A stretch of DNA of 64,000 nucleotides. Source: Parachryseolinea silvisoli (GTDB lineage: Bacteria > Bacteroidota > Bacteroidia > Cytophagales > Cyclobacteriaceae). Shown piece by piece: positions 1 to 28,392 of the stretch. Below the pieces are notes generated by a model. It searched no databases. It saw nothing but the letters and a program-made list of their open reading frames with translations, and was not told the DNA's origin. Where the stretch lies: NCBI RefSeq assembly GCF_021190955.1, contig NZ_JAIOAO010000005.1, positions 1 to 64,000 of the forward strand, given 5' to 3'. Made by a program: the position numbers and the translations under genes. Position 1 is the stretch's first letter, and every line of letters begins with the position of its first letter.

Positions 1-99
1 GTCCCCGGTTTAGACCACGCGGTATGCGCTTCAATACTCCGCCGAACCACCCAGGGAATCGGTGCGAAGAACCTTCCTCCCGGATCAGTCTTAAGATAA
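1..99 (+). CDS. Small secreted Cys protein, C-terminal part (cut by window edge)
   Basis: Only the last 32 codons and a TAA stop are in the window. The encoded tail is identical, residue for residue, to the C-terminus of the next gene, and the DNA is identical over the same stretch up to the last base of the stop (TAA here, TAG there). The tail carries the fourth cysteine of the family (sequence HAVC). The two genes are therefore a tandem duplication on the same strand. Function unknown; see the entry at 146. Confidence 0.8.
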   Translation, partial: VPGLDHAVCASILRRTTQGIGAKNLPPGSVLR

Positions 100-145
100 G
101 TTCTTATCCCTAAATAAATTTCCTAAATAATTAACAAACAAATCT

Positions 146-460
146 ATGAAAACAATCATTTTTCGATTTCTTGCCGTCGTGGTAGCTTTTGCTGGTGCAG
201 CAGCTACTGTCAGTGCCGTCGCCCCGGGACAAGCTCACATTAGATATATAGCTCCTGGCGAAACAGAAACAACTTGCTCAACAGTAAACTTCCAATGTAC
301 ACCCGCAGGACAATTTGCTTGTCAGGTAAGCGTTGTCGTTGGGTCAAATCCGCCTGTCAACGTCCCCGGTTTAGACCACGCGGTATGCGCTTCAATACTC
401 CGCCGAACCACCCAGGGAATCGGTGCGAAGAACCTTCCTCCCGGATCAGTCTTAAGATAG
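146..460 (+). CDS. Small secreted four-cysteine protein (DUF6520-like)
   Basis: A 104-residue protein. Residues 1-24 form a clear signal peptide (basic start, hydrophobic core, AXA-like end near VSA). The mature part has four cysteines spaced C-x6-C-x7-C-x21-C, a pattern shared with the small genes at 27278, 27578, 28102 and 28948. It resembles the short Bacteroidota proteins grouped as DUF6520, but that assignment is from memory and tentative. It follows a near-identical copy (1-99) by 46 bp and ends convergent to an M16 peptidase-SusD-SusC operon, suggesting it may be a substrate or ligand of that system. No enzyme motif is visible. After the fourth Cys the tail is longer than in its relatives and is rich in Arg, Gly and Pro. 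Confidence 0.75.
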   Translation: MKTIIFRFLAVVVAFAGAAATVSAVAPGQAHIRYIAPGETETTCSTVNFQCTPAGQFACQVSVVVGSNPPVNVPGLDHAVCASILRRTTQGIGAKNLPPGSVLR

Positions 461-488
461 GTTACTGATAAATTAGTGGATCTTTGAT

Positions 489-524
489 TATAGGGGTAGT
501 AAAACTAATATCACTACCCCTATA
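489..524. terminator. Perfect 12-bp stem between convergent genes
   Basis: The arms TATAGGGGTAGT and ACTACCCCTATA are perfectly complementary around a 12-base AT-rich loop. The hairpin lies between the stop of the small secreted gene (460) and the stop of the convergent M16 gene (570), where a bidirectional terminator is expected. There is no long T tract on either side, so factor-independent termination is plausible but not proven. Confidence 0.5.
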
Positions 525-569
525 CATACTCATCCTAGAAAACTCCCTGAACCTCATACTACGTATAAT

Positions 570-3443
570 CTAATTCATAATGATATCATCCGAACTAAGA
601 GAAAAAATTATCGGTTCACTCAGATTCAATCGCTGTACGATCCTCACTATGTCCGACTGAGTTATCGAATCAATTATTAACGGGTAAGATAAAACTGTTC
701 GTAAATCTCTTCCATCAAGACTCATTTCGGATAAGTAATCAACCCAAAACGTCGGATCTTTCATCCGACTAACAACTTCAGAAAGAATTTGACTTTTCGA
801 CGAAATAAATATACCATTCTGTGTATCAACAGATTGCAACTTAACGAGTTCATTCTTGACAGCATTAATCGCCTGATTAGCATACCCAGACACACAATCG
901 AACGACACACCCAACAAATAGTTGTAGTTCGGAATATACCTATGCCTAACTGTAAAAGCATTTACGGTGTATGATAAGGCATCAACTGACCGTAATCTGT
1001 CCGACGCTACCCGCAGCAATACGCGCTCTAAAATTTCCATAGCAAAGTCACTTACAATTGTCGGTTCGCTAACTGATGGAAACCCGACCATTATTTTGGA
1101 GACACCACCAAATTTCCCTTTAAATATAAAACTATTTAATTCCTGCCGTTGATTGGCTCTGTTTTCGCTAGGACCACTATTGTGAATATTATTCTCTTCG
1201 AACCGAGGTATAGTCCCAACATATTTCAATATGATAGGAACAATAGAAACCGAATCAAATTTTCCACATATAATGACTGTGAGTTTTCCACTATTTTGAA
1301 AATTCCTTTTGAATAAAACTAACATTCTCTTCATATCAGCCATTTCTAACATTCGCTCAGTCGTTACAAAATCGCCAGAGAATTGAAATGCTTTAAGTAT
1401 GGAATTCTGAAAAATTTGAAGAGTATCAGACTCATTCCTTACTTTCTCAATTTCCCGCCTCTTCCTCTCCTTCCAATCTTCGAACGCATTGGGATCAATC
1501 TTCGGTGAATTAAAGGTTAAGTTAACCCCTTGCAACATTGTTTCAAGTTCCTCGTAATCAGACCTTCCCGAAATCACAAATCTATCGGGCTCAACTGAAT
1601 GTCCAAATCTGATGTCCTTTTTCTTAAGGAATGCTCTCCAGTTTGAACTATTATATGGGCCCAAACCACTATTCGAAACAACATCATCACCAAAAAAGAA
1701 CGATACCGAATCCATTTCACTCCCCTGATTAAACTGTATCGGCCCAATCACCTTAATGAATACCTTATCCGTCTCCCGCAACATAGGTTTCAATATCACA
1801 TTAACTCCATTGGACAATTTCAATGTTGATACGCGAGTAGAATCATCATATGACTTACGTAAAACGCGAACACCAGCAGTATCAATGCTGGATACATACT
1901 TGCCGTTCATCAGCGGAATAGAAGCGTGGTTACTTGTATCTTTAGGCATCACAAAAGGCGTTTTTTTTGCCGATTTAGACGCAATAATCCACCTCTTCGC
2001 CTCCGACCTTTGCACCATCTTCGGATATTTCTTGTCATCAACAAAAAAACCTACCACTCTATTGTTATTTAAATCAATACTGCTAAAATAGATATTAACA
2101 TCGTCGACAGTCGTTGATTCGAAAATACGGCTATAAAACCTACGTTTCACCGCCGGTGAAACCATCTCGCTTCCAGTTTCAAAATTATCCTCATAGTCAC
2201 GGACAAATGATTCTATCGACCCTATATCACTCAAAAAGTCATTCTTTATCTTATTTTTTGCCGCAACCAATTCGCTCTCAGAAAATCCGTCACGCTGAGC
2301 GCGATGCATTTCTCCTAAACAGCTAACAAACTTCTCCTTCAGATCCCTGCTACCTTGAGACCTGATATCCACCATTAGTCCAGCCAAAGGACGTCCATAA
2401 TTAAACAAACGGTTCCTAAAACCAAAAATAAAATCAAGGCTACTCCGTTTCGTTAAATCATTTTTCATTCTAGTTTGAAGCAAATCAGCGATTAGCTGAT
2501 TTAATACTAAATACTCAAAATCATCATATCGTCTTATGGAGCGCGAGCGCATTTTAAATAAAATCGTACAATGCCCCGCTTCCTTTTCCTCATCAGAGGG
2601 AAATATTTCAATGCTGTTACCACCAGAAAGAATAGCTGCCTTTTGGGGGCCAGAATCCCTCACTTTCTCACGGCCTGGGATTGTACCAAAAACATCTTTA
2701 ACTTTACTACTAATAATCCCGGGGTCCAGATCACCAACGATAATTATAGCTTCCAAATCTGGACGATACCACGTATCACGAAATTTGATTAACGCACCTC
2801 TCTCAATTTTATCGCCGTTAGCCTGCTTATCCTGCAAAATCCTGCCACTATGATTACCGTCCCCGATGGCGTTAGCGATGAAATCTAATGAACTCCCGAG
2901 CGACATTCTCCCCATTCCCCGCTCCTGAGATACAATCCTCTTTTCGCGTTCGACATTGATAGAATCCAAATTGATCACGCCGCTGGCCCACTCTTGAATG
3001 AGTTCTAAACAGAAATCTACTAAACCAGGATCACTGCCGGGAATCGTGAAAATATATTCGGTCTTACCATAATCGGTGACTGCATTATAATCTACCCCCA
3101 GCAAAAGGCCACGACCTTCAAGCTCTTTTCTAAGTTGTGGATATCTACTTGTTGATCTTGCTGCCAAATGCTCCAATATATGAGCTGCCTCAAGTTGATT
3201 GGGTTCTTCTTGCTCAAATCCAGCTCTAACGATAAATCGAATCTCAATTTTCTTCTGCAGGCTATCAACCTTTCGAACATAGTAGCAGAAACCGTTATCA
3301 AGTTTACCGTACTCTAGTAACGAATCTCTAGGTAACAGCACATCACTCGAGGGAACAAACCCCTGGGACCTACACGGCAGCAAACCTAAGTTGAAGAACA
3401 AACATATTACAACAAAAACGAAACCACATATTTTTTCCGACAT
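570..3443 (-). CDS. M16 family zinc metallopeptidase (insulinase-like), exported
   Basis: A 957-residue two-lobed M16 protein with an N-terminal hydrophobic signal (residues 1-27, ending near CRSQG). The inverted zinc motif HxxEH is present as HILEH at residues 88-92. The downstream acidic ligand is most likely E174 in the segment EREKRIVSQE. The second half repeats the fold without an active-site motif (segments around 'LKLSNGVNVILKP' and 'KIMVGFPS'), as usual for M16. The family cleaves peptides inside a closed chamber, here probably in the periplasm or at the outer membrane. It is the last gene of a minus-strand operon after SusC and SusD (60 bp gap to SusD), facing the small secreted Cys genes. 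Peptides would be the logical substrate; which ones is inference. The DNA is AT-rich compared with most of the window. Confidence 0.9.
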   Translation of the reverse strand: MSEKICGFVFVVICLFFNLGLLPCRSQGFVPSSDVLLPRDSLLEYGKLDNGFCYYVRKVDSLQKKIEIRFIVRAGFEQEEPNQLEAAHILEHLAARSTSRYPQLRKELEGRGLLLGVDYNAVTDYGKTEYIFTIPGSDPGLVDFCLELIQEWASGVINLDSINVEREKRIVSQERGMGRMSLGSSLDFIANAIGDGNHSGRILQDKQANGDKIERGALIKFRDTWYRPDLEAIIIVGDLDPGIISSKVKDVFGTIPGREKVRDSGPQKAAILSGGNSIEIFPSDEEKEAGHCTILFKMRSRSIRRYDDFEYLVLNQLIADLLQTRMKNDLTKRSSLDFIFGFRNRLFNYGRPLAGLMVDIRSQGSRDLKEKFVSCLGEMHRAQRDGFSESELVAAKNKIKNDFLSDIGSIESFVRDYEDNFETGSEMVSPAVKRRFYSRIFESTTVDDVNIYFSSIDLNNNRVVGFFVDDKKYPKMVQRSEAKRWIIASKSAKKTPFVMPKDTSNHASIPLMNGKYVSSIDTAGVRVLRKSYDDSTRVSTLKLSNGVNVILKPMLRETDKVFIKVIGPIQFNQGSEMDSVSFFFGDDVVSNSGLGPYNSSNWRAFLKKKDIRFGHSVEPDRFVISGRSDYEELETMLQGVNLTFNSPKIDPNAFEDWKERKRREIEKVRNESDTLQIFQNSILKAFQFSGDFVTTERMLEMADMKRMLVLFKRNFQNSGKLTVIICGKFDSVSIVPIILKYVGTIPRFEENNIHNSGPSENRANQRQELNSFIFKGKFGGVSKIMVGFPSVSEPTIVSDFAMEILERVLLRVASDRLRSVDALSYTVNAFTVRHRYIPNYNYLLGVSFDCVSGYANQAINAVKNELVKLQSVDTQNGIFISSKSQILSEVVSRMKDPTFWVDYLSEMSLDGRDLRTVLSYPLIIDSITQSDIVRIVQRLNLSEPIIFSLSSDDIIMN

Positions 3444-3503
3444 ACAAATTCAATCTGTTTTCAATCATATAAAAGAAGCTCACCAAAGCGCCATCACCAC
3501 CGG

Positions 3504-4889
3504 TCAATACCCAGGGTTTTGCCGGACTAACCTAGGATTCCTCAAAAATTCGCTATCCGGAATTGGATACAGTTTATCGTCCTTCGTAAACAATTCCTTT
3601 TCTTGAGATAAAACTTCCTCGGCCTTATTTCGTCTTTTTAAATCAAACCACCGATGTCCCCACTCAGTGACTAGCTCTATCCTGCGTTCGTTATCGATGT
3701 AACTCAAAACCTCCAATTTTGACACCGAATGTACATCCAACAGACCAGCGCGGCGCCGAATTGCATTAATATCAGACAATGCCCCTGCATCACCTTCGAG
3801 CTTATCCTGCATAGCTCTTGCTTCAGCTCGAATAAGATATTGTTCTGCCAATCTCAACACCATCGAATACTCAGCTAGGGGTTCCGACGATTTGTCTTGC
3901 TTATACTTACAAGGGTAGAAAATTGTATCGCCCTCGACAACTAGGGTATCAATCCATCTATTGATACGCATGTCTCCCGGTTCGGTGGACGACATAAACC
4001 CGTCGTTTATTACATTATAGTATGCTACATTATCAGGCGAAAATACACTAGCCTCATTTGTTGATCCATTATTCCCGTCAGAAATGGGCCTCAACTGCCA
4101 TATCGACTCCGAGCTATTTTTTAAAAAGACCTCATCCACCGCAACTTCAAGATTATACATCTCACTGTTTTGTATGACGTTAGTGGACATCTCCTCCGCC
4201 ATAGACCAATTATTCAAATACAAATAGACACGCGCAGAAAGTGCAAATGCAGAAAATCTATTCGGTCTTATTCGTTCATTCGATAGGGCTGCATATTCTG
4301 AAGAAAGTAACTCTCCTGCTTTAGCTAAATCGGACAAAATCTGATCATAAACTTCCGAGACATCAGTTCTGCCAATAGCTGAGTTGACTTTGTAATCCGT
4401 TGAGAGAGTCAATGGAATATCTCCAAACAGATTAATCAAATAAAAGTTACAAAATGCTCGAATAAAAAACACCTCTCCCAGTAACTGACTTTTGACTGAC
4501 TCCGATAACTCGTCTGAATGCTGAATTCCTTCAATCACAGTATTCGCTTGGTAAATTGCTTTATACAGAGAGACCCAAAGATATTTCACATAAACATTAT
4601 TGGGCTTTACCTCTGTCTCCTCGAATTCCACGCTATACATATCATACTTAGGATTATTCACCAGTTCATCCGAAGATAGCCCCGATAAACTAGATATGCT
4701 ATATTCACTACCGCTTGAGAAAGCCAGTACCGATAGCATATCACTGTATATACCAAGAACTACCGCAGTTGCCGTTACATCGTCTGCGAAAACGACCGAG
4801 CTCTCTATTTTCGATTTTGGAGGATCAACATCCAAAAAGCCAGAACAAGAAGTAATCAAAAAAAAGGCAAATGGAAATAAAACTTTCAT
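3504..4889 (-). CDS. RagB/SusD family outer-membrane lipoprotein
   Basis: A 461-residue SusD-like lipoprotein. It has a short lipoprotein signal with lipobox LITSC (Cys about residue 15), followed by the family's typical start (FLDVDPPKS). TPR-type helices are suggested by the segments YKAIYQANTVIEG and FFIRAFCNFYLINLFGDIP. The C-terminal signature RRIELVTEWGHRWFDLKR is typical of SusD. It should form the lid of the SusC barrel encoded 44 bp upstream and bind the substrate at the cell surface. It is clearly similar to the SusD at 31618 (shared FxDVDxPK start, YQAN, NLFGD, STDYxVN segments), placing both transporters in one subfamily. The substrate is unknown; the M16 peptidase neighbour suggests peptides rather than glycans. 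Confidence 0.93.
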   Translation of the reverse strand: MKVLFPFAFFLITSCSGFLDVDPPKSKIESSVVFADDVTATAVVLGIYSDMLSVLAFSSGSEYSISSLSGLSSDELVNNPKYDMYSVEFEETEVKPNNVYVKYLWVSLYKAIYQANTVIEGIQHSDELSESVKSQLLGEVFFIRAFCNFYLINLFGDIPLTLSTDYKVNSAIGRTDVSEVYDQILSDLAKAGELLSSEYAALSNERIRPNRFSAFALSARVYLYLNNWSMAEEMSTNVIQNSEMYNLEVAVDEVFLKNSSESIWQLRPISDGNNGSTNEASVFSPDNVAYYNVINDGFMSSTEPGDMRINRWIDTLVVEGDTIFYPCKYKQDKSSEPLAEYSMVLRLAEQYLIRAEARAMQDKLEGDAGALSDINAIRRRAGLLDVHSVSKLEVLSYIDNERRIELVTEWGHRWFDLKRRNKAEEVLSQEKELFTKDDKLYPIPDSEFLRNPRLVRQNPGY

Positions 4890-4933
4890 AAGTTAATTAT
4901 CTATAGGATGTATTCATTTATTTACTTTGAAAA

Positions 4934-7900
4934 TCAAAAGCTGGCCTGAAGCCCATAAGTAATCATTCTCAGTTGGGGAAGAGATCTCGCGCCAGTTTCG
5001 GGATCTAAGCCTATAAAATTCGTAATTGTCCATAGGTTCTGTCCTTGAACAAATACGTTAAGCTGTTTCATATTTAACTTATCAAGTAGCGTACTAGGTA
5101 ACTTATAGGTAACAGACATTGTCTTAAGCCTAATAAAGGAAGCGTCTACGGTATTGTAGTTACTGGACCGAACTTGGGTATATTCATTATACAAAGTAAA
5201 GTCTGTTGAGAACTTTGCAATATCTGTTATATCGCCATCATTTTCCCAACGATTCATGACCTCAATCGGTTGATTTCCGATAAACATACCAGGGTAATCA
5301 TTATATATGCTTGTACCATTTCGTTTGCAATACTGAAACAAAAGAGACAATTCAAACTGGCCATACCGAATAGTATTTACAACACCACCGTAATATTTAT
5401 CCACAAGCGCACTTCCAAATCGGCCGTCATCAACGTAGTTAATTGCACCGTCTCCACTTAAGTCATCAATAACGTGTTGCCCGGTCTGAGGATTGACTCC
5501 ACTCCATACATACTGATACTGGATTGCAAGCGGCTCCCCAACCTTATAAGTTTTAGAATAAGGAGAATCTTCTATACCGGGAAAAGAGATGAGTTCATTT
5601 TTGGGAACCGTAAGATTAATAGATGTAGTCCAATCAAACCTCTTCGATCTTATATTTTGGCTTTGCAAAACAAATTCCAAACCGCGATTCTCAACTGTCG
5701 CATTAAAATTAGTCAATATAAAATCAAACCCTGTTGTCGTCGGCAACTGATAATTCACAAGTTGATTCGAAGACCTGTTTTTGTAGTAGGTCGCCAGAAC
5801 AGAAAATCTATCATCTAACAATCGAATTTCTAAAGAGCTCTCTAGTTTGGCGGTAACTTCCCACTTAAAGTCCCTATTGAAGAGGCCGTTTGGTGTTAAA
5901 GTGGTAGAATTTTGATATCTTGAGTCGCCGATCCGAAATAGGTTGTAATATTGGTAATCCCCTATCTGATCATTGCCAGTTTTTCCATAGCTAATTCGGA
6001 GTTTACCTAGACTCAGAAATTTGAGTTTATCTCTCAAAAACGATTCATTTGAAAATATCCAGGCTGCGCCTACTGCACCAAAATTACCAAATTGGTTACC
6101 TGGACCAAATCGTGAAGAACCGTCTCTTCTACCTGTAAAATTTACAAAATATTTATCATCATAATTATATCCAAGTCGCGCAAATGATGCCATATATCTA
6201 TATTGGTTATTATCATCCGCCGAATACGTATATGATCGCGCACCTCTCAGTGTATTTAGTAAGACATCTGAGGCGTAGCCCGTGGCATTTACAGCTACCC
6301 ACCTCGTATCATTTCCTTGAAAAGTACCGCCCACCAGCGCATCAAAAGAGTGATACCCCAGTCGCTTAGAATAATTTAACTGTGGCTCGATTATCCAAGA
6401 CGTCCTTCTATTATCGCTAAACATAGCTGATCCCGTGGAGTTGGCCCCTCTGTTAATCGGCGGTATAGTAACTATTGGCGTTCTTATAATTTCATCACCA
6501 TTTGTATCTGTATATCCAAGGCTTGCACTTAAATCTAATCCATTCACAATCCTGTATTTAAGGTTTGCGTTGGCAACTAGTGTGCTAAGCTTAGATTCAT
6601 TTACTTTCAATAGCTCAACCATTGGATTTGTAAATGAAGCGAGCTTAAATGTGCCATAGTCAATAATTTCCCAGTTTAAGCTACCGTCATCGTTGTATAG
6701 TCTGGGTGCCACAGGCGACAGTGATAACGCGCTTTCTACAATTCTTGAAAGATTGGCAATCGTATTATTATTAACTCCATAGTTTACAGCGAAATCAACC
6801 GAAAGTCGACCTTCAGTTGGACGGTAGTTAAAATTAAAGCTTGCACTTGCTCGGCTAAAGCGAAGGTCGTCTGACATAAATGATGTTTCGTCATGATATG
6901 CGCCACCAATCCGAAAAGAAGCTATCCCACCTAATCCAGAGGAGATGCTCCCTTGAAAATCACTTATCTTCGCTGATCCTGATAACAACTCATCCTGCCA
7001 GTCAGTATATCTTGTGGTATCCCACTGCGTCATATCATAATCAAATTGGCCTGGCGTTGCATTTGCATTTCGAAAGGCTTCACGACGCATTTCTAGATAT
7101 TGCTGATGATTTAGAAGATCAACTTTATTTGAAATCCTCCCAACACCTCCGTAAGCGCCGATATCGACACTCAAGTGATCCGAGCTTCTTCCTTTTTTTG
7201 TAGTGACCAATATAACACCATTCGCTCCCCTAGACCCGTAAATAGCCGTCGCGTCTGCATCTTTTAAAACTTCTATACTTTCAATGTTATCGGGATTCAA
7301 ATTAGACAGTGGATCTATACCCATTGCATAAAGGCCCGATTGCGATTGCAAGGGACTTGAATCAACTATAACCCCATCAATCACATACAAGGGATATCCT
7401 CCATCAGACCGAAGGCTATTCTCACCCCTGATTCGAATCCTTGGAGCAGCTCCCGGAGCTCCATTCTGTGGGTTTACCTCTAGACCCGCTACCCGCCCCT
7501 GCAAAGAAAGCAAAGGGCTAGTAACAGGCTGTCTCTCTATATCTTTAGATAATATCTTGACGATGTTGGACGTTGTTGTCCTTTCTTGTGTTTTATAGTA
7601 CCCGCCAACTTCGACCATGTCTAGTGTCCTGGCGTCTTCTTCGAGAATTTGATCTATTGTTGTCCTGTTGCCAATCAATATTTCAACTGTTTTATACCCA
7701 ATAAATGAAAAAATAAGCCAATCATTAGAACCTGCGTCTATAGTATAGATACCATCCACATCAGTCGTTGTCCCGTTTGTTGTGCCGCGAATTACCACGT
7801 TCACACCGGCCATCGGATTTCCCAAAATATCTTTCACGACGCCAGTAACTGTTGATATGCCTTTATTGGATTTTCCTTTTAGCTTAAAAACTGATATCGT

Positions 7901-8281
7901 TCTATTTGATCTCAAATATCCTAAATCGCTTTCACCTATTGCAACATCAAGAACTTCTCGTACGCTTTTAGTTCCTGGTGATATGCTAATGTCATTAAAT
8001 CGATCCACCACGTCGGGAGAAAAGACAAATAAAAAACTTGTCTGTCTTTCGATCTGCGCGAAAATCAACCGCAATGAAATATGTTGAGCCTCGATGCTCA
8101 CGTAGGTATTTTCGATCGTTTGGCTATGTACTGACTCAGCCTTCAGCAGATGAAGAGCCAGGGTAACGATTAACATCAGGCATGCCGTTGATACGCGCAT
8201 AATTTTTCTTAAGTGTGGGATTCGAGCAAAAGCGTTGACAAGCCTTATGCCATCTTCCCAAGTTCGGGTAAAGTTTCTCAT
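4934..8281 (-). CDS. SusC/RagA TonB-linked outer-membrane receptor with STN domain
   Basis: A TonB-dependent SusC transporter of 1115 residues from the chosen start. In order: a short N-tail and membrane or signal segment (MRVSTACLMLIVTLALHLL), an STN (secretin/TonB N-terminal) domain just after it, a carboxypeptidase-like CarbD domain (GVVKDILGNPMAGVNVVIRG), a plug with GxYK and IxRGxNSLR motifs and the classic ADATAIYGSRGANGVILVTTKKG, then the beta-barrel. The STN domain normally relays to a FecR anti-sigma factor, but none is adjacent here. An in-frame ATG 54 bp upstream (8335) would put the start inside a perfect inverted repeat at 8325-8354, so 8281 is preferred. It shares subfamily motifs (MRREAFxN, WDTTRYTDWQ) with the SusC at 33052. 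AT-rich, possibly horizontally acquired. Confidence 0.93.
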   Translation of the reverse strand: MRNFTRTWEDGIRLVNAFARIPHLRKIMRVSTACLMLIVTLALHLLKAESVHSQTIENTYVSIEAQHISLRLIFAQIERQTSFLFVFSPDVVDRFNDISISPGTKSVREVLDVAIGESDLGYLRSNRTISVFKLKGKSNKGISTVTGVVKDILGNPMAGVNVVIRGTTNGTTTDVDGIYTIDAGSNDWLIFSFIGYKTVEILIGNRTTIDQILEEDARTLDMVEVGGYYKTQERTTTSNIVKILSKDIERQPVTSPLLSLQGRVAGLEVNPQNGAPGAAPRIRIRGENSLRSDGGYPLYVIDGVIVDSSPLQSQSGLYAMGIDPLSNLNPDNIESIEVLKDADATAIYGSRGANGVILVTTKKGRSSDHLSVDIGAYGGVGRISNKVDLLNHQQYLEMRREAFRNANATPGQFDYDMTQWDTTRYTDWQDELLSGSAKISDFQGSISSGLGGIASFRIGGAYHDETSFMSDDLRFSRASASFNFNYRPTEGRLSVDFAVNYGVNNNTIANLSRIVESALSLSPVAPRLYNDDGSLNWEIIDYGTFKLASFTNPMVELLKVNESKLSTLVANANLKYRIVNGLDLSASLGYTDTNGDEIIRTPIVTIPPINRGANSTGSAMFSDNRRTSWIIEPQLNYSKRLGYHSFDALVGGTFQGNDTRWVAVNATGYASDVLLNTLRGARSYTYSADDNNQYRYMASFARLGYNYDDKYFVNFTGRRDGSSRFGPGNQFGNFGAVGAAWIFSNESFLRDKLKFLSLGKLRISYGKTGNDQIGDYQYYNLFRIGDSRYQNSTTLTPNGLFNRDFKWEVTAKLESSLEIRLLDDRFSVLATYYKNRSSNQLVNYQLPTTTGFDFILTNFNATVENRGLEFVLQSQNIRSKRFDWTTSINLTVPKNELISFPGIEDSPYSKTYKVGEPLAIQYQYVWSGVNPQTGQHVIDDLSGDGAINYVDDGRFGSALVDKYYGGVVNTIRYGQFELSLLFQYCKRNGTSIYNDYPGMFIGNQPIEVMNRWENDGDITDIAKFSTDFTLYNEYTQVRSSNYNTVDASFIRLKTMSVTYKLPSTLLDKLNMKQLNVFVQGQNLWTITNFIGLDPETGARSLPQLRMITYGLQASF

Positions 8282-8324
8282 AGAGTAGTTGGATAGATTA
8301 TTAGGTAGGTCTTTGGTTATGATC

Positions 8325-8354
8325 GCTGGATACAAGCTGCAACTTGTATCCAGC
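8325..8354. promoter_or_regulatory. Perfect 12-bp inverted repeat upstream of SusC
   Basis: GCTGGATACAAG is followed after six bases by CTTGTATCCAGC. It lies 44 bp before the chosen SusC start. It could be an operator, or a hairpin in the mRNA leader. The half-site ATACAAG recurs in the palindrome at 8701. Confidence 0.5.
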
Positions 8355-9454: not shown

Positions 9455-10207
9455 ATGGGAAAGTTAACCAATAAAACAGCATTCATCACCGGCGGCACCA
9501 GCGGCATCGGACTCGCTACCGCACAAGATTTCATCAACGAAGGCGCACGCGTCATCATCACCGGCAGGCACTCCGAAACACTAAACCAAACCGTAGCGTC
9601 GCTCGGTCCTAACGCCTTTAGCATTGCCTGCGACAATGGTAAGATGTCCGACATACTGCAACTCCCGGAACGCATCAAAGCTATAACGCCCGCGCTGGAT
9701 ATCGTCTTCGCCAACGCCGGCTACGGCCGGTTTGCTCCGGTCGGCGGGGTCACCGAAGCCATGTTCGACGAGCTTTTCAACGTGCTGGTAAAAGGCACCT
9801 TCTTCACCGTACAACAACTGTTACCGCTACTACGCGAAGGCAGCTCGATCATCTTCAACACGTCTGTCGTAACCGCATACGGCAGCCAAAACGCGAGCAT
9901 CTACTCCGCTGCAAAAGCCGCTGTACAATCACTCACAAAAAACCTGGCCGCAGACCTGACGGCACAAAAGATTCGCGTGAATTCCGTTAGCCCGGGGTAT
10001 ACAGAAACAGATATATTTAACAAAACGGGCTTTACGGCGGAACAGATCACGGGGGCGAAAGACTATATAACGCCGCTCCTACCGTACAAACGTTTTGGAA
10101 CAGCAATGGAAGTTGCCAAGGCAGTCTCGTTTTTAGCCAGCGATGATGCGTCGTATATACACGGTGCCGAGATCGTCGTAGACGGTGGCTACTCTGTTAT
10201 TCGTTAA
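9455..10207 (+). CDS. Short-chain dehydrogenase/reductase (SDR)
   Basis: A 250-residue classical SDR oxidoreductase. The N-terminal Rossmann motif is TGGTSGIG (residues about 11-18), the NAG-type motif appears as ANAGYG, and the catalytic pair sits in IYSAAKAA (Y-x3-K), preceded by the conserved Ser in NTSVVTA. The C-terminus ends with the usual SDR close (SYIHGAEIVVDGGYS). Length is typical. These enzymes reduce or oxidise carbonyl/alcohol groups with NAD(P)H; the substrate cannot be told. It stands alone, with no operon partner on its strand within 390 bp. The residue after the Rossmann beta2 strand is Arg (ITGRHS), which favours NADP(H) by family knowledge. Confidence 0.93.
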   Translation: MGKLTNKTAFITGGTSGIGLATAQDFINEGARVIITGRHSETLNQTVASLGPNAFSIACDNGKMSDILQLPERIKAITPALDIVFANAGYGRFAPVGGVTEAMFDELFNVLVKGTFFTVQQLLPLLREGSSIIFNTSVVTAYGSQNASIYSAAKAAVQSLTKNLAADLTAQKIRVNSVSPGYTETDIFNKTGFTAEQITGAKDYITPLLPYKRFGTAMEVAKAVSFLASDDASYIHGAEIVVDGGYSVIR

Positions 10208-10601
10208 ACAATTTCAATACAGTGTCCCGAGGGTGGCGTCAAGATGCCAGTTTCACCTGGGCTCCTGCCTTCCTGGTTTCAGGCTTGAACCAGGGATGTT
10301 CTACTCCTATTAAAGCGTAGATCATCCGTGGTTCATCCGTGGAACATCTATGGAGGAACCCTGTGGCAGACTCGAAGGATCCCCGGCGAAGCATGCCCTT
10401 TTTTCGTCCTGGCTTCGACCCGCCTCGCAACTCCTCACCCCTCCTGGGGACACCCAAATTCCATTTTTTCAAACAAACGAAATTTGATTCAAAACCACCT
10501 GTCAAAACTGATCCAACAGGTGATTAACACGTGATTACCAAAAACCGCCACCGGCCGTTTCCCAATTGTTCGTATCTTTAACCCTGGCGATAATCTAACC
10601 T
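10208..10601. other. Intergenic region, nothing clear
   Basis: Between the SDR gene and the first large secreted protein. Open frames here are short and of poor coding quality. The last 45 bases before the ATG at 10602 contain TTGTTCGTATCTTTA, which loosely resembles a -7 box, but no confident promoter can be assigned. Confidence 0.4.
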
Positions 10602-13600
10602 ATGCAACGTTATGCAACCCGCTACTCCGTTATGCGGATCGTGGCACTCTTGTCATTGATTTCATTCCACGCTTTCTCTCAGGGCGACCAGGACCTTCGA
10701 TTTATTGAAAACAAGGGCCAATGGGATAAAAAACATGATTTTCAAGCCCGGGTGCCGGGCGGACGCCTCGGCGTCTCGGCTACAGGCTTTTCCATTCTCC
10801 TCCTCGATATGGAAGAGCTGGAACACCGCCACCTGGAAAGCCATGGCAAAATCGAGGAATCCAGCGGGCATGGAACCGATGCCCCCATCGACGGCCATTA
10901 TTTTCAAATCAACCTCCTGGGCTCCAACCCGAACACGAAACCCATTGCCGAAACCCCGCTCGAGGGCTACGACAACTACTTCCTGGGCGCCGATTCCCGC
11001 CAGTGGGTCCGCAAAGCGATGGCCTACGCCACTGTGCTGTACCCCGACGTCTACCCGGGCATCGATTTTCGCGTGTCGTCCCTGGGTACAAACCTCAAAT
11101 ACGACTTTATCGTCAGACCGGGCGCCGATCCGTCGCAGATCAGGCTGCAGTACGACGGCACCTTCGGCGTGGAGCAAGAAGAAGATGCCCTGGTGATCAA
11201 AACGGCCGTAGGATCACTCACCGAAGAGAAACCCTATTGTTACCAGGCCAACGGTAAGGCCAATGAAACCGTACCCAGCGCCTACACGCTGAACAACGAC
11301 ATCGTTTCCTTCCGTTTCCCGGCCGACTACGACGCATCTCGCACCCTGGTGATCGACCCGCTGCTGATTTTCTCCACGTACTCCGGCTCCACCGCCGACA
11401 ACTGGGGCAGCACCGCCACCCCCGGCGAGCATGGTACGCTCTATTCCGCCGGCATTACGCGTGTACTCAATGGAGTAGGATTCTTTCCGGCCACGACCGG
11501 AGCCTACCAGACCACCAACAAGGGTGGGTTCGACATGGCCATCATTAAGTATGATTCGGCCGGGACGAAGTTTCTGTATGCCACCCACCTGGGCGGCTCC
11601 GGCAACGACTCGCCGCAAAGCCTCGTCGTCGACGAAGTCTCCGGTGATTTGCTGGTGCTGGGCATCTCCAGCTCGGACAACTTCCCCACCAGCGCCGGCG
11701 GCTACGACAAAACATTCAACTTCGGCACCGAGGTGCTCAACGGCGTCCTCAATACACGCGATAAGTGGGACATCGTCATCACCCGCTTCTCCCCCGACGG
11801 AACCCAGCTGATCGGGTCGACGTTCCTGGGCGGCACCGACAACGACGGACTGAACATCTCCAAAGCCCGTGGCGGCCCGCTGGTGGTAAACTATGGCGAC
11901 GAAATGCGCGGCGACATCATGACCGATGCGGCCGGAAATGTATACATCGCCTCCGTGACCAGCTCCAGCGACTTTCCCGTCCCCGGCGGCTTCGACCAAT
12001 CGTACAACGGCGGCCTCAGCGACGGCGTGGTGACCAAGCTGGCGCCCGACCTGTCGTCCATCCTCTGGTCCACGTACATCGGTGGCGCCGGCACCGACGC
12101 CGCCTATTCCCTCAAATTCGACAAAGCCAAAAACATCGTACTCGGCGGCGGCACGAGCAGTGCCGACTTCCCCGCCACGCCCGGCGCCTATCAAGCCACC
12201 TTCAACGGTATCGTCGACGGCTGGATCGCCCGGCTGTCAGCCGATGGCAGCAATCTGATGCAGGCCACCTTTACCGGCACGACGTCCTTCGACCAGGTAT
12301 ATTTCGTCGACCTCAACGAAGAGGGCGACGTTTTTTGCTACGGCCAGACCGCCGGCCACATGCCGGTAACCGCCAACGTGTTTAACAACCCCAACAGCGG
12401 CCAGTTCTTACAGCGGTTTTCACCGGACCTCAGTACACGCAAGTTCTCGACGATATTCGGATCGGCATCGCCCAGCGGGCTCGTGATCCCGAACATCTCG
12501 CCGACCGCGTTCCTGGTAAACGCCTGCGACAACATCTACATGGCCGGTTGGGGCGGTGATATTAATTCCACCGCGGGCTATTGGCAAAGTAATACCAACG
12601 GTATGACCGTCACACCGGATGCGCAGCAACCGGCCACCACCGGCTCGGATTTCTATTTCATCGTGCTGAACGGCGACGCCACGGAGCTGGTATACTCCAC
12701 ATACCTCGGTGGCACATCGTCAAAAACACACGTCGACGGAGGCACCTCCCGCTTCGACAAACACGGCATCGTCTACCATGCCGTGTGCTCGGGATGTACT
12801 TCCGGCAACAGTGCCGGACCCCGGCCCACCTCCGACTTCCCCACGACGCTGAATGCCAAGTCGCGGGTAAACCGCAGTAATAACTGTAACAACGCCGCCT
12901 TCAAATTCGACCTGTCCACGCTGCGCGCGAACTTCGACACCAACAACCTGGACCTGACCATGCCCGGGTATAACAACGTCTGCTTCCCGGAACAGATCCT
13001 GTTCCAGAACCTCAGCACGGGCGGTAAAACCTTCATCTGGGATTTTGACGACGGCACCATCGTGACCCGACAAAAAAACGAGCCCCGGAATGTCATACAC
13101 CAGTTCAACGAAGAAGGCGACTACCATGTCAAGCTGAAGATCAACGACCTCAGCACCTGCGCCCAGTCGGACTCGATCACTAAAGTCATCCATTATTTCA
13201 AACCCAACATCTTCGTAGGCGACGACGGCAAGGTGTGTACCGGGCAGAGCTTTCAGCTCACGGCCAGCGGCGGCGAGACCTATACCTGGACGAGTGAGGA
13301 CGGAACGTTCACCTCCGACGCCCCCTCCCCCGTGGTCACACCGGCCAATGCCATGACATACTACGTCACGGTAGTCGACGACGACGGCTGTACAAAAAGC
13401 GATACGGTATACGTCAACCTGATCCCGTATGTATACGCCCGCTTCGAAACGTATGACGTGAACCTCGATCATCCCGGCTACAACGAGATTTGCGCTCCGG
13501 ATGTCATACAGCTAAAAAACCTGAGCGAGAACGGCAAGCACTTTGTGTGGACCTTTAACGACGGCACCGTGCCCCTCGCGACCGATGACATGGCTCCGTT

Positions 13601-22806: not shown

Positions 22807-24087
22807 CTACTGACACCCTCTTCCATAAAACTCCAGCACACCATTTTTCTGCTGCCGATGCTCCAGCTGCGGAAGCAGCTTCTCCAGCGTATTCACAACG
22901 TGCTCCAGCTTCACCTGGTCATCCTGGAACATCGCCGTTACATCACAGTTGTTCACACTTGCGGCGACCGCAATTTTTGTCTGAAAGCGTGCTTCCATCA
23001 ACTGCGCAGCGCTGTCAAGGGTAATCCCGTCAAACACCAGCATATCGTCCGTCCAACGCAGGGCATAGGCGGGATCGATCGTGGTCACCATCGCACGATG
23101 CGTGCGCGTGTCGACAATGAGCTGCTGCCCCGCCGTGATCTCACCATGTACATATTGATCGCTGCTCACGCGCACGCGGCCGCGCGTAACGGTCACGACA
23201 ACAACGGGCTGCCCGGTAAAGGCCTCCACGTTAAAGGCTGTGCCGAGCACCTGGAGGGTCACCCCTTGTGTGTATATGACGAACGGATGCGCTGCATCGT
23301 GCGCGATATCGAAATATGCCTCCCCTTCCAGGACCACCTCGCGTGCATACCCTTGCGTAAAGCTCGGGCTGTAGCACAGGCGGCTTTGATTGTTGAGGGT
23401 GACCGCGCTGTGGTCGGGCAATCGTAAAAATTGTTTGTCTTCAAAGACTTCGGCGCCAACGGCGCATTGCCGGCTGATCGGTGCCGGCGCGGTACCCAAA
23501 GGCCAGAGATTGAACAGCCACGAAGCCAGCATCAATAAGCCGGCCACCGCCGCAGCGATCATAAGACCCTGCGCGCGGTTGATCGGCAATGGTTGGGGCT
23601 CCATAATATTGTTCCAGACACGTTCGCGGCGTTTGGCCGCACGGCGTGCTTCCAGCGGTGTCAAAGGTTGAATGTGGGGATCGTCCAGCCTGGCCATGAT
23701 CTCGCGGTAAAAGGCCTCGCCGATAATCTCGTCGTCCGGGCGGATCTCGTCCGGGTCGCCAACCGACAGGATGCTATAAAGTTGGTCGCGTTCGGCGGCG
23801 GTACTGTTTTCGGGAAAACGATCGACAATTTCCTCGGTCAGCGTGCGCGCTTCCTTCATGCGGTCCCACACGCGCTCACGCGCAAGAATAGCCTGGCGCT
23901 CTTCTGCGCGGGGTATAGCGCCTTGCGGATTTTCGATGCGGTGCCGCGCCTCACGGTATAGCTCCGCGCCCATGGCCTGGTCGGCCGAGCCGGAGGCCAG
24001 CAAGATATATACCCGATCGCGCTCGGCGGGCGTGGCAGTGTCGTCCAGGAAACGACGCACCAGGTCTTCCATCGATATATTTTCCAT
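22807..24087 (-). CDS. FecR family protein with duplicated N-terminal module
   Basis: A 426-residue FecR protein. The N-terminus holds two tandem copies of an anti-sigma-like helical unit: copy 1 about residues 6-78 (DLVRRFLDDTATPAERDRVYILL ... ERVWDRMKE), copy 2 about 83-163 (EIVDRFPENSTAAERDQLYSIL ... RERVWNNIME). One membrane segment follows (GLMIAAAVAGLLMLASWLF), then the FecR domain (LPDHSAVTLNNQSRLCYSP, GEAYFDIAHDAAHPFVI, VLGTAFNVEAF) and a DUF4974 C-terminus ending in GRGCQ. FecR proteins relay a signal from an outer-membrane STN domain to an ECF sigma factor. Here no sigma factor or SusC is adjacent. The next gene upstream (24368) is another FecR with a single copy of the N-module. 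Confidence 0.9.
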   Translation of the reverse strand: MENISMEDLVRRFLDDTATPAERDRVYILLASGSADQAMGAELYREARHRIENPQGAIPRAEERQAILARERVWDRMKEARTLTEEIVDRFPENSTAAERDQLYSILSVGDPDEIRPDDEIIGEAFYREIMARLDDPHIQPLTPLEARRAAKRRERVWNNIMEPQPLPINRAQGLMIAAAVAGLLMLASWLFNLWPLGTAPAPISRQCAVGAEVFEDKQFLRLPDHSAVTLNNQSRLCYSPSFTQGYAREVVLEGEAYFDIAHDAAHPFVIYTQGVTLQVLGTAFNVEAFTGQPVVVVTVTRGRVRVSSDQYVHGEITAGQQLIVDTRTHRAMVTTIDPAYALRWTDDMLVFDGITLDSAAQLMEARFQTKIAVAASVNNCDVTAMFQDDQVKLEHVVNTLEKLLPQLEHRQQKNGVLEFYGRGCQ

Positions 24088-24367: not shown

Positions 24368-25432
24368 TTAATATTGACGGCAACCGCTGTGCAATACCAC
24401 CACTTTGCGGGCAGCATCGTACGTATAACCTTTTTTCTGCACGTTGGTGGTATACAATTTCATGACCGCCGTCAATACCGCATCCAGATCATCGGACGGG
24501 TAAAATGCCGCCGTAAACGGTTCACATTGTTTCAACGACTCCTGCTCAAATTGAACATCCACCGAAAACCGCTCCTCGAGCATGCGTGCCGCAGCTTCCA
24601 TCTTCATATTCTTAAACACTACCAGGTGCTGCCGCCAGATGGCCGAGTTATGGTCGATCGCCTGTTTACGGGCCTTCTTGGTCTCCATGTTAATGATCAG
24701 CGCCTCGCCCGGCGCCACCTTGCCATACGATTTCCCCTCCGCAACATGGCGTACTTCCACCAGTCCGCGTGTCACCGCAACTTCCGCCTCGCGATGGTCG
24801 CGGAACGTGCGCACGTTAAACGACGTGCCCAGCACGTGCGTGGAAATGGTCGCAGTCTGTACGACAAAGGGATGCGCCGGATCGTGCTGAACATCAAAGA
24901 ACGCTTCGCCGTCGAGCTTCACCACACGCTCTTTTTTACCAAAGTCGGCCGCATTGAATTGCAGCTCGCTTCCCGGTTTGAGCACCACAATGCTGCCGTC
25001 GGGCAGGAAGATCGGCTGCTTACCCTGGTAAACCTTCAGGGCGGTAAGGACCGAGCCGGGAAGGACATCGGTATGACTCGATTTGCGGAAGGCCCAGCTG
25101 CCGACCACCAGCAGGGTAACGATACAGGCCGCGGCCACCTGCAGGTGCCACGGCTCGATCCAACGCCGTTTGGCCCGGGGCTGAATGATCTTTTTATAGA
25201 CGCGCCTGCGGACGCTGTCACCGCGGCGGCGTTCGGCGGCCGGAATATAGTGGGATGTCGGGTCGTCGAAATAGCCCATAAAGCGGCGATCGAGCTCGAT
25301 GCGCAAAAGCTCCTCGACGTTTCCGGTGTTGGTACGCAGCATGGTCAAAATCTCTTCACGCTCTTCGCGCCTGAGGTTATTGTCCAAAAAGCGACGTACC
25401 AGGTCTAATGTTGCTGCCTCCTCTGTTTCCAT
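24368..25432 (-). CDS. FecR family protein (no adjacent sigma factor)
   Basis: A 354-residue FecR. The cytoplasmic N-module (LDLVRRFLDNNLRREEREEIL ... RRRVYKKIIQP) matches the units in the FecR proteins at 22807 and 36423. A membrane helix follows (WHLQVAAACIVTLLVVGSWAF), then the FecR domain (LPDGSIVVLKPGSELQF, GEAFFDVQHDPAHPFVV, VLGTSFNVRTF) and a DUF4974 unit ending VVLHSGCRQY. It lies upstream of the duplicated-module FecR on the same strand with a 280-bp gap. The gap contains an AT-rich patch but no gene I can support. It is predicted to be a cytoplasmic-membrane anti-sigma or co-regulator; its partner is not in this window. Confidence 0.9.
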   Translation of the reverse strand: METEEAATLDLVRRFLDNNLRREEREEILTMLRTNTGNVEELLRIELDRRFMGYFDDPTSHYIPAAERRRGDSVRRRVYKKIIQPRAKRRWIEPWHLQVAAACIVTLLVVGSWAFRKSSHTDVLPGSVLTALKVYQGKQPIFLPDGSIVVLKPGSELQFNAADFGKKERVVKLDGEAFFDVQHDPAHPFVVQTATISTHVLGTSFNVRTFRDHREAEVAVTRGLVEVRHVAEGKSYGKVAPGEALIINMETKKARKQAIDHNSAIWRQHLVVFKNMKMEAAARMLEERFSVDVQFEQESLKQCEPFTAAFYPSDDLDAVLTAVMKLYTTNVQKKGYTYDAARKVVVLHSGCRQY

Positions 25433-26175
25433 TGCTTACAGGGCGTTGCGGGGGAGCCCTGCCCCAGGTTTTACGATCAGATAACTCCTTTCAGTATGCG
25501 AATCCCTCGAAAAAGCGCACGATCAACACAACCGAACCCACCAATCCATTATGGTTCTTTGATAGAGACACTCGTACGAAGGGCTGGTATAAGAAGAATA
25601 GGGTGGTATTTTGGGGGACTTCCGGCCAACGGCTGGTTTTGCCCTATCAATGCCCAAACCCTATAAGTATAGTAACCTAAATCTATACTTTCCGCCGGCC
25701 ATTTTCAAGTCTTATACTATTTTCCGAAAGGCACCTGCTCATGGATGCCTGAACAAAGCCTGGCCTTTTCGCATTCTCAAATGGCCTTTTGTTGTGCGGA
25801 AATACCCCGGTTTTAGCAAAATGCTCCCGCGAACGTAAACTTTCGTCAACATTCAGGAAACAATACACTGTATCTTCACCGTATGGTTAGCCCTGCCGCA
25901 GGCGGCGGCAGCAAAGCGAAGCCTACCGGTGATACTCGTACAACCGGATGAAAATAGTTGGTTAGAAGTCCCTTATGATTGATCGTAACTACAATGTGGC
26001 TTTACTTCCTAACCAACCAGCAGGCAAACGCAGGGGTCCGTACGACAGGAGCGATGTGCTCTGAATGTACTCGTTGAAATTTAGAATAACTGCTTCACGA
26101 ATACGGATCCCCTTTTGCTTGCTTCAGCCGTTACGGGTCATTGGGCTAAATAGACAACCAAAACGCCATCCTACT
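25433..26175. other. Non-coding stretch between FecR and the small Cys genes
   Basis: About 740 bp with no supported gene. It is divergent control space for the FecR gene (minus) and the first small secreted gene of the cluster (plus). It includes copy A of the repeated promoter element (25816-25878) and a GC-rich hairpin-prone patch just after it (GCCGCAGGCGGCGGC). Confidence 0.5.
25816..25878 (+). promoter_or_regulatory. Repeated promoter element, copy A
   Basis: Begins GCAAAATGCTCCCGC, then CGAACGTAAAC, TCAACATTC and a TATCTTCA box, with 16 bases between ATTC and TATC. The same order and spacing occur at 27185 and 27973. It lies 298 bp before the first small secreted gene at 26176. The 5' block is unusually well conserved and may be an activator site. 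It differs from the other copies in having ATTC where they have TTTG or ATTG. Confidence 0.5.
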
Positions 26176-26439
26176 ATGAAGAAGAACGCCATGCTCCCGA
26201 CCGTCGCGTTTGCGATCGCCATCGCCGGTAGCCTTTATGCCTCGACTTTACCCAACATCACAGGCTATGCGCGCAAGCCCGACGGCTCGATCCTGGAAGT
26301 CTCGATCACCGACGAATGTCGCTTAAACGAACCAGTCTGGTGTGTGGCGTTCGTAGGAGGCAATGCATATCAGTACATCTATCGCACCTATTCCGCTGCC
26401 GTGGCGCAAGACGCTACCCAGCAACTGAAGCACCATTGA
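26176..26439 (+). CDS. Small secreted protein, two-cysteine variant
   Basis: An 87-residue protein from the ATG at 26176, where the natural signal peptide starts (KKNAMLPTVAFAIAIAGSLYAS). Longer in-frame starts back to 26065 are possible but not natural. The mature part has only two cysteines, spaced C-x7-C (ECRLNEPVWC), matching the inner pair of the four-cysteine family; the outer pair is absent. Followed by a hairpin at 26495. No enzymatic motif. It is grouped with the other small exported proteins by position, size, signal peptide and the C-x7-C unit. Confidence 0.65.
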   Translation: MKKNAMLPTVAFAIAIAGSLYASTLPNITGYARKPDGSILEVSITDECRLNEPVWCVAFVGGNAYQYIYRTYSAAVAQDATQQLKHH

Positions 26440-27277: not shown

Positions 27278-27532
27278 ATGAAAAATCTTATGCTCGTGAC
27301 CACCGCATTTCTGTTTTCCATCCTTTTGATCGCACACCAGATGCAATCCGCACCCGTTCCGCCTCCCCGCTATGCGCATAATCCCACAACAGGAGCATGC
27401 CAGGAAGTATCCGCACCAGGTTGCAACCCGTCAGGCGCGGTGCGCTGCACGGTACTCCTGGACGGAGTCTCAGCACTCGTTTATAGTCCTCTGACGGAAA
27501 CGCGGTGCGCATTAGCCTTGTACAAGAATTAA
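27278..27532 (+). CDS. Small secreted four-cysteine protein
   Basis: An 84-residue protein with a signal peptide (KNLMLVTTAFLFSILLIAHQMQSA). The mature part begins with a proline-rich PVPPPRYAH segment, then four cysteines C-x7-C-x7-C-x19-C (GACQ ... PGCN ... VRCTV ... TRC). The CNPSGAVRCTV block is the family's most conserved part. It is first of a two-gene unit with the paralogue 45 bp downstream; both begin with the same MKNLMLV. It follows promoter element B directly. Tentatively DUF6520-like; function unknown. Confidence 0.75.
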   Translation: MKNLMLVTTAFLFSILLIAHQMQSAPVPPPRYAHNPTTGACQEVSAPGCNPSGAVRCTVLLDGVSALVYSPLTETRCALALYKN

Positions 27533-27577: not shown

Positions 27578-27847
27578 ATGAAAAATCTCATGTTAGTAAT
27601 GCTCGCCCTTGTCATTTCAGTTGCCTCGGTGCTGTATACACAGTCGCATCCGCTTCCTCCGCCGCATTTTTATGGATATGATCCTGACACGCTTAAATGC
27701 ACCAAGGGTGACATCGAAGGCACGTGTGGCGATGGAACAGCGGTGCGGTGTACCGTCACGATCGATGAATACTTCGGAATCCCAGCATTCGACCATAAGG
27801 TTGGTAGTAATGTCTGTATGTACCCTTCCTTCCGGGCCTCAAATTAA
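27578..27847 (+). CDS. Small secreted four-cysteine protein
   Basis: An 89-residue paralogue of its neighbour. Signal peptide 1-22, proline-rich HPLPPPHFYG, then C-x8-C-x7-C-x21-C with the core GTCGDGTAVRCTVTI and the phrase FGIPAFDHK. This phrase and the DPDTLKC block are almost repeated in the gene at 28948, so those two are the closest pair. Probably co-transcribed with 27278 and ended by the strong terminator at 27852. Confidence 0.75.
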   Translation: MKNLMLVMLALVISVASVLYTQSHPLPPPHFYGYDPDTLKCTKGDIEGTCGDGTAVRCTVTIDEYFGIPAFDHKVGSNVCMYPSFRASN

Positions 27848-28101: not shown

Positions 28102-28392
28102 ATGAAACTATCTAATCTCCTGATTGTCTCATCGGCCTTTTCACTGGCTATCGCCGGAACGGCCATGAATTATGCGCAAAAAGACGAAGTCCTTCTTCGC
28201 ATTGTAGCGACAGATCCCGACAGCATATGCCGGGTCTTCCCGGAAACGATCGAAGACAACTGCGCCCTGTTGAACACCGGCCCTCAGTGCTCGGTGTGGT
28301 ACGAAGAAGACGGAACAGCCGACGTCTTGCTGGCATATATTACTCCGTTGGCATTGCCACTTTGTGCGCTGCCGTTACGAACACGGAATTAA
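28102..28392 (+). CDS. Small secreted four-cysteine protein, divergent member
   Basis: A 96-residue protein with a signal peptide (KLSNLLIVSSAFSLAIAGTAMNYA). Four cysteines are spaced C-x10-C-x8-C-x24-C, slightly wider than in its relatives, and the proline-rich start is missing. The central block is acidic (VWYEEDGTAD). First gene of a plus-strand run with the MauE-like protein 24 bp downstream, which links these small proteins with a redox membrane protein. Function unknown. Confidence 0.7.
   Translation: MKLSNLLIVSSAFSLAIAGTAMNYAQKDEVLLRIVATDPDSICRVFPETIEDNCALLNTGPQCSVWYEEDGTADVLLAYITPLALPLCALPLRTRN

Follow-up and report, generated by a model that had tools for sequence, protein, structure and literature searches.

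Why should genes for small four-cysteine proteins run tail to tail into an operon for an M16 peptidase and a SusC/SusD pair? We addressed this question for the left end (positions 1-8335) of a 64,000-nucleotide stretch of the 7.9-Mb genome of Parachryseolinea silvisoli, hereafter the window, whose position 1 is base 1 of contig NZ_JAIOAO010000005.1 (C9). Behind the observation is a conserved gene module present across Bacteroidota, in which genes for small cysteine proteins, generally accompanied by genes for the membrane protein MauE and a predicted propeller protein, here called Prop, converge on genes for SusC, SusD, and a third protein, X, which is mostly a peptidase or a TlpA-type thioredoxin.

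Small cysteine genes converge on SusCD operons at two places in the window

The original prediction, made from the letters of the window, had placed tandem four-cysteine genes at 1-460 opposite M16, SusD, and SusC genes. Pfam identified all three operon genes and the convergent layout holds; the tandem copies are identical, and they comprise one intact gene (146-460) and a fragment (1-96). The features of this first locus are:

1-96 (+): 3' end (32 codons) of a second copy of the small four-cysteine gene, cut by the contig start
146-460 (+): small four-cysteine protein, 104 amino acids (aa), DUF6520-like by a family hidden Markov model (HMM)
489-524 (no strand): perfect inverted repeat of 12 bp in the gap separating the two sides, terminator-like by sequence
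570-3443 (-): M16 peptidase, 957 aa, with the zinc motif HILEH (Pfam)
3504-4889 (-): SusD-like protein, 461 aa, of the linked subfamily (Pfam, profile, tree)
4934-8335 (-): SusC-like TonB-dependent transporter, 1133-aa frame from TTG, start unsure (Pfam)

The fragment and the intact gene are 100% identical over the final 32 codons, and the arms of the inverted repeat (489-500 and 513-524) separate the small genes from the M16 side. The 104-aa protein carries cysteines C44, C51, C59, and C81, has a 23-residue tail past the fourth, and its N-terminus looks like a signal peptide by eye; its AlphaFold model (pLDDT 76.5, pTM 0.49) has an N-terminal helix followed by short strands. The closest structural relative of the window SusC was 8aa4, followed by RagA (6sli), and no FecR gene lies next to SusC at this locus. 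The top PDB matches of the M16 peptidase were 9ldy, 6b03/6brs/6b05, and PqqL (6ofs/6oft), of which the second group, entered as 'putative zinc protease', is presumably FusC. The codes of this group were not found in PMC6071955.

The same layout recurs at 26-37.5 kb of the window, as had been proposed, where small genes around MauE and Prop converge on TlpA-SusD-SusC-FecR:

26176-26439 (+): two-cysteine small protein, 87 aa (ATG inside the open reading frame 26065-26439)
27278-27532 (+): four-cysteine small protein
27578-27847 (+): four-cysteine small protein
28102-28392 (+): four-cysteine small protein
28417-28851 (+): MauE membrane protein with CxCGG motif (PF07291 over cut-off)
28948-29244 (+): four-cysteine small protein (DUF6520 barely over cut-off, 25.7 versus 25.4 bits)
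29248-30345 (+): Prop, a predicted beta-propeller with an N-terminal helix, without a family in Pfam
30314-31615 (-): TlpA-type thioredoxin with CTSC motif, in the X position (Pfam)
31618-33042 (-): SusD (Pfam, profile)
33052-36318 (-): SusC (STN at E 1.1e-5, under the Pfam cut-off)
36423-37550 (-): FecR-type anti-sigma factor, upstream of SusC (Pfam)

The SusC and SusD motifs quoted in the original prediction occur at both window loci, but two of the SusC motifs are not diagnostic: sequences like WDTTRYTDWQ (WxxTRxTDWQ) were present in 15/86 linked versus 5/22 unlinked SusC proteins and MRREA in 26/86 versus 5/22. Both were dropped as markers in favour of profile and tree, which support the subfamily status of these proteins.

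Elsewhere in the genome, LanKC-MauE-Prop and two small genes face M16-SusD-SusC (L010), two small genes-Prop-MauE face FecR-SusC-SusD-M16 (L023), one small gene-Prop-MauE faces SusC-SusD-TlpA (L024), and one small gene faces SusC-SusD (L025), with a small-Prop-MauE set in which no SusCD was seen ~43 kb away (L026); M16-SusD-SusC-FecR also occurs without a small gene (L027). Six of the seven SusD proteins of the subfamily in this genome face a small gene, and six of the seven adjoin M16 or TlpA.

Further SusCD loci from this genome serve as controls. Within 8 kb on one contig, a convergent MauE gene was found for 4/7 subfamily SusD genes versus 0/23 other SusD hits (p 0.0013), and the first window locus is a further MauE-linked case across a contig gap. 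The small-protein HMM, MauE, and Prop had no match in 20 other SusCD loci (6-6.5 kb each, mostly downstream of SusD). A Pfam scan of 20 control genes downstream of SusCD, taken from 17 of these loci and from L028, L029, and L031 (L153, L159, and L160 were left out for want of a suitable neighbour), found no peptidase or thioredoxin, compared to 6/7 in the subfamily (Fisher p 2.4e-5); seven of these genes encode GH30, GH88, GH97, GH36, a sulfatase, a SASA esterase, or SusE, seven belong to other families, and six had no Pfam match at 1e-4. An exception in kind is the distant SusD of L031, on contig C12: a weak MauE, encoded on the strand of this SusD, lies 1.4 kb downstream. At the first window locus, the SusD gene adjoins M16 rather than the carbohydrate-active enzyme or SusE-like gene that would mark a glycan (polysaccharide) utilization locus.

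The module recurs in several Bacteroidota families

In the genus, SusD was detected in 4/7 genomes and MauE in 5/7, again as convergent pairs at several places. Across the class, SusD-like (E<=1e-100) and MauE-like (E<=1e-12) proteins were each found in 10/198 genomes, own included, and both in 8 (hypergeometric 4e-11; 6e-10 without the own genome). Seven of the 13 class SusD genes outside the own genome have MauE within 7 kb, and all seven pairs are convergent (G079, G086, G130 twice, G166, G175, and G258); the six without MauE nearby are in G179 (three), G130 (one), G239, and G209, where the contig ends 0.7 kb away. Because SusD at E<=1e-100 was present in 3 of 60 genomes of the family sample, own included, the clade is patchy.

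A contig scan with MauE yielded 79 named loci, the best 79 of 493 MauE relatives and thus with nearer kin over-represented, from Flavobacteriaceae, Cytophagales, Pedobacter, Niastella, and others. Two of these repeat Dawidia soli contigs of G063; L056 was excluded, leaving 78, while L069 was kept and scored as a failure. Among the 73 of 78 loci with 6 kb downstream, Prop was present in 71, a small gene (HMM or four-cysteine pattern) in 72, a convergent SusD in 67, and all three in 66.

In a set anchored on SusD (40 proteins from 15 genomes: own 7, genus 8, G009 11, G047 1, class 13), 24 were linked, having a small gene, MauE, or Prop convergent within 8 kb, 13 were unlinked, 2 were cut by contig ends, and 1 was doubtful; at least one linked locus occurred in 11/15 genomes, so that the subfamily is found mostly with such genes nearby, the opposite of what would have spoken against a link. 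On the SusD tree, linked proteins group together, with 6 changes of state compared to a mean of 12.7 after shuffling (0/500 as low). Three loci (L025, L033, and L039, two of them orthologous) combine a small gene and SusCD with no MauE or Prop within 8 kb, and were counted in favour of the self-encoded cargo reading weighed below.

The nearest relative of the window SusD, from Dawidia soli (L035), is just 52% identical, and its surroundings share with the window a short-chain dehydrogenase (80% identical) and a 1282-aa gene (87%). Because these flanks are far better conserved than SusD, the import genes have changed, by divergence or exchange, at a much higher rate than the sequence around them. 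There, SusD is followed by a NACHT-GDPD gene (1252 aa, L035:7011-10769) in the place of M16, and no small gene is present.

The third operon gene mostly encodes a peptidase or a thioredoxin

SusD faces a small gene at 90 listed loci, of which 89 are distinct (L112 and L146 are one locus). X is a peptidase or TlpA-type thioredoxin in 83 of these: S9 in 32, TlpA in 29, M16 in 9, met-zincin in 7, S8 plus TlpA in 5, and M16 plus S8 in 1, classes other than M16 and TlpA resting on phmmer matches to one or two representatives with a Pfam annotation. The remaining loci have an amidohydrolase/PD40 protein (1) or no X (6). Active-site motifs are intact in M16 (7/7), met-zincin (7/7), S8 (3/3), S9 (28/30), and TlpA (CxxC, 34/36). 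That such unrelated families would share the job of opening a peptide suggests a disulfide-bonded peptide cargo, for which it would be expected. At the unlinked loci L136, L138, and L052, ATP-binding cassette (ABC) transporter genes follow SusD in place of the peptidase (PF00005; PF09822/PF12679 in L136 and L138).

The small proteins, MauE, and Prop

Pfam assigned the window small protein (146-457) to 0 families at E<=0.01, and at this threshold DUF6520 (PF20130) matched 68 of 83 aligned small proteins, the 83 including the window protein; a family HMM built without the window protein and L041 scored the window protein at 36 bits (E 1.2e-9). The four cysteines are invariant across the 83 members, in part by selection, as small-gene calls require the four-cysteine pattern; 120 small genes face the 90 SusD loci, 100 with the pattern. 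Mean pairwise identity is 20% for the small protein, 31% for Prop, 41% for SusD, 44% for SusC, and 49% for MauE. For pairs at least 50% identical, the small genes look to be under purifying selection, with defined ratios of nonsynonymous to synonymous substitution (dN/dS) of 0.09-0.89, all below 1, and no positive selection was seen. The tail past the fourth cysteine, taken as the maximum per locus, is 23-75 residues in nine M16 loci with the four-cysteine pattern versus 7-24 in 65 other loci, the value of 75 coming from an odd copy in L037. A rule that Prop goes with four-cysteine and MauE alone with two-cysteine proteins was dropped on account of exceptions (L032, L146, the S8 plus TlpA loci, and others).

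The CxCGG motif of MauE is kept in 98/102 proteins, and MauE is fused to Prop in a single protein (~500 aa) at many loci of the Flavobacterium type. The AlphaFold model of Prop (pLDDT 92.7, pTM 0.88) has an N-terminal helix and a strand pattern that, together with Foldseek matches, predicts a membrane-anchored beta-propeller. Various propellers are among the best 50 of 1365 Foldseek matches, with DUF4221 (3s9j) second; the heavy chain of methylamine dehydrogenase is absent from these 50 and was rejected as an identity for Prop. Because divergence of the peptide follows that of Prop after correction for MauE (partial r 0.48, 78 loci), Prop is the component most likely to touch the peptide directly.

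Directly upstream of SusC, FecR is encoded in 21/52 linked loci with enough upstream sequence, all with a long SusC. Two further FecR-like genes lie in tandem (22807-24087 and 24368-25432) upstream of the second small-gene cluster of the window.

The first locus probably continues on a second contig

The final 127 bases of contig C12 match the window from position 134, and C12 ends inside a small gene whose first 38 residues are identical to the window copy. Given this match, a tandem array of identical four-cysteine genes probably spans a gap in the assembly, which would have broken there and left the rest of the locus on C12; we infer that C12 and C9 are adjacent. On C12 (L009), a TlpA-like gene (-) is followed by LanKC-like, MauE, and Prop genes (+) and then the small-gene array:

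C12 13980-16664 (+): LanKC-like kinase/cyclase, with Pfam RamC_N, kinase, and LANC_like in order
C12 16681-17112 (+): MauE (PF07291 over cut-off)
C12 17109-18224 (+): Prop

MauE, Prop, the LanKC-like gene across the gap, the TlpA gene of the second locus, and the range of X all go beyond the original prediction. The LanKC-like protein scores below the NCBIfam cut-offs (LanL, 302 of 650 bits; LanKC, 249 of 575 bits). Such a gene immediately precedes MauE in four loci (L009, L010 at 4312-6945, L037, and L041), where its product may modify the small protein; no LanKC-like match was found among the 79 named loci.

Several other genes were seen near MauE. In L032, the LanKC position between the small gene and MauE is taken by a stand-alone 302-aa protein kinase (10044-10952). 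In a Bacteroidetes metagenome-assembled genome, a gene for a LanB-type lantibiotic dehydratase (L059:4371-7397) precedes MauE by 2.6 kb, and elsewhere an ABC exporter-like gene (L071:6395-8092) lies upstream of MauE and small genes. Upstream of the LanKC-like gene in L010, 1034-2443 has subtilase-like motifs by eye and 3460-3750 is a short near-repeat of its C-terminus.

A proposed self-encoded cargo and its alternatives

Our working hypothesis, to which we give about even chances and which draws on analogy with the Fus system, is that the small cysteine peptide is made with MauE and Prop as a self-encoded cargo, which SusCD takes up for cleavage or reduction in the periplasm. Specifically, the small DUF6520-like proteins with signal-like N-termini would be exported; in a few loci, apparently including the first window locus across the gap, the LanKC-like kinase/cyclase might modify the peptide first; MauE, helped by the membrane-anchored Prop, would oxidise its cysteines to disulfides; the convergent SusC-SusD pair would carry it across the outer membrane; and X would open it in the periplasm, the peptidases (M16 at the first window locus; elsewhere S9, met-zincin, or S8) by cutting the peptide and TlpA by reducing its disulfides. 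Where FecR adjoins SusC, import might be reported to an extracytoplasmic function (ECF) sigma factor, and the peptide might be a self-made signal or carrier. From the convergent layout, the original prediction had proposed a functional link in which an exported peptide is bound, cleaved by M16, or re-imported by SusCD; the genomic link is well supported, a peptidase or thioredoxin as X fits this proposal, and the mechanism is plausible from gene content. A bolder form, which we hold only tentatively, is a phylum-wide self-peptide loop of Bacteroidota, in which a disulfide-locked peptide would be released, retaken by a private SusCD, and unlocked by an interchangeable enzyme, acting as a signal or cofactor carrier.

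Several observations weigh against a self-encoded cargo. No outer membrane exit route for the peptide was identified, and a fold search with the model of the window small protein returned nothing below E 1 and no convincing PDB match. Among the 40 anchored SusD proteins, 16 are unlinked, cut, or doubtful, and SusCD-X operons occur without small genes, with X being M16 (L027), TlpA (L049, L050, and L135), thioredoxin (L053), met-zincin (L139), or S8 (one copy in L054). Because unlinked relatives often keep X, peptide processing is a trait of the SusCD clade at large and is by itself no proof that the neighbour is the cargo. The correlation of peptide divergence with SusC (raw 0.43) falls to 0.04 once Prop is accounted for, unlike what a tight ligand-receptor pair would give, although the alignment of the small proteins is poor (~20% identity). 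The pairing of M16 with long tails corresponds to 1-2 independent changes on the SusD tree, so that its p of 1.3e-6 overstates it and it was dropped as independent statistical proof; moreover, a tenth M16 locus (L058) has a two-cysteine peptide. Finally, FecR lies upstream of 11/19 unlinked SusC genes and is thus at least as common there as in linked loci; it was rejected as a mark of peptide loci, and signalling via FecR is possible in part of the linked loci without being special to them.

The alternative that survives best, although we consider it rather unlikely, is that SusCD-X imports a foreign protein or peptide and that the small cysteine proteins, folded by MauE and Prop, are a periplasmic chaperone, redox sensor, or regulator that is never imported. 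The operons without small genes and the divergence that tracks Prop and not SusC are both in line with this alternative, as is the import of foreign ferredoxin by Fus-type systems described in excerpts of PMC6793856. A fixed subunit, however, would not be expected to occur as two to five small genes per SusCD, as in 19/90 loci, nor to be the most variable component (20% versus 31-49% identity), and M16 loci carry a distinct peptide form, though by few events.

It is less probable still that the small proteins are bacteriocin-like antagonists or ribosomally synthesized and post-translationally modified peptides (RiPPs), and that SusCD-X removes or destroys the producer's own product for self-protection. 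The LanKC-like gene upstream of MauE in four loci, the LanB-type dehydratase in L059, and the exporter-like gene in L071 are compatible with this possibility, and mauE homologues are reported from candidate Streptomyces RiPP clusters in excerpts of PMC7794033. The lack of a LanKC-like match in the 79 named loci and the defined dN/dS values below 1 throughout argue against it; other RiPP enzymes were sought among 17 upstream genes of 14 loci (Pfam). Mere sharing of genomic regions by MauE/DUF6520 clusters and SusCD operons is very improbable and already largely refuted by the counts, for although one set is split on own-genome contig C5 (small gene plus SusCD at 1.00 Mb, small-Prop-MauE at 1.05 Mb), and likewise in Dawidia soli, named loci from several Bacteroidota families and 7/7 class-wide pairs retain the convergent layout, which was found in 0/20 other SusCD loci.

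Relation to known systems

A self-encoded cargo taken up by SusCD would have its closest parallel in Fus (FusA/FusC of Pectobacterium, YddB/PqqL of Escherichia coli), where, as here, a TonB-dependent transporter gene stands beside that of a ~920-aa M16 protease; the window M16 protein, with its HILEH motif, has PqqL among its nearest solved relatives. According to excerpts of PMC6793856, other proteases, and perhaps a redox enzyme of the cytochrome c peroxidase family, can replace FusC in Fus clusters, which resembles the substitution among S9, S8, zincin, and TlpA described here. Fus differs in its FusA-type transporter, in place of which we find a SusC/RagA-like protein with SusD, and in that the putative cargo is encoded next door here; MauE and Prop are not mentioned for Fus in these excerpts.

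RagAB of Porphyromonas gingivalis belongs to the same SusC/RagA family, with RagA the second-best, not the top, solved relative of the window SusC, and we know of no paired cysteine-peptide gene, MauE, or Prop from it. RagAB is implicated in protein uptake in excerpts of PMC11817032. The mau genes (MauE/MauD, methylamine dehydrogenase maturation) bring together a MauE family protein, a thioredoxin in a MauD-like role, a beta-propeller protein, and a small cysteine protein, as here. The small proteins described here differ from those of mau systems in matching DUF6520 or nothing in Pfam, and no methylamine dehydrogenase subunits turned up in the Pfam scans of neighbours, in which no dedicated search for them was made. 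Excerpts of PMC7794033 mention speculation that MauE takes part in disulfide formation. The C12 protein shares with class III/IV lanthipeptide synthetases (LanKC/LanL) the order RamC_N, kinase, and LANC_like; it differs from them in scoring below the curated cut-offs, in its restriction to four loci, and in a putative precursor with a Sec-like signal (by eye).

SusCD pairs have been studied mostly as glycan importers, and to our knowledge no SusCD yet serves a self-made, gene-encoded peptide. In open-licence PubMed Central, we found no description of small cysteine/MauE/Prop genes facing SusCD-X and no literature on DUF6520; the combination, in Bacteroidota, of Fus-like import and MauE with an adjacent gene for a putative cargo seems to be new. 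A widespread SusCD clade that faces small cysteine proteins and in which proteases or thiol reductases replace glycan enzymes gives DUF6520 and this MauE clade a testable role. Should the peptide indeed be re-imported, Bacteroidota would have in it a self-made candidate for signalling or for the scavenging of cofactors.

Regulatory genes were also seen just upstream of MauE in two flavobacterial loci, namely LytTR, histidine kinase, and response regulator genes (L062:5116-9101) and an AraC-type regulator (L076:8961-9872).

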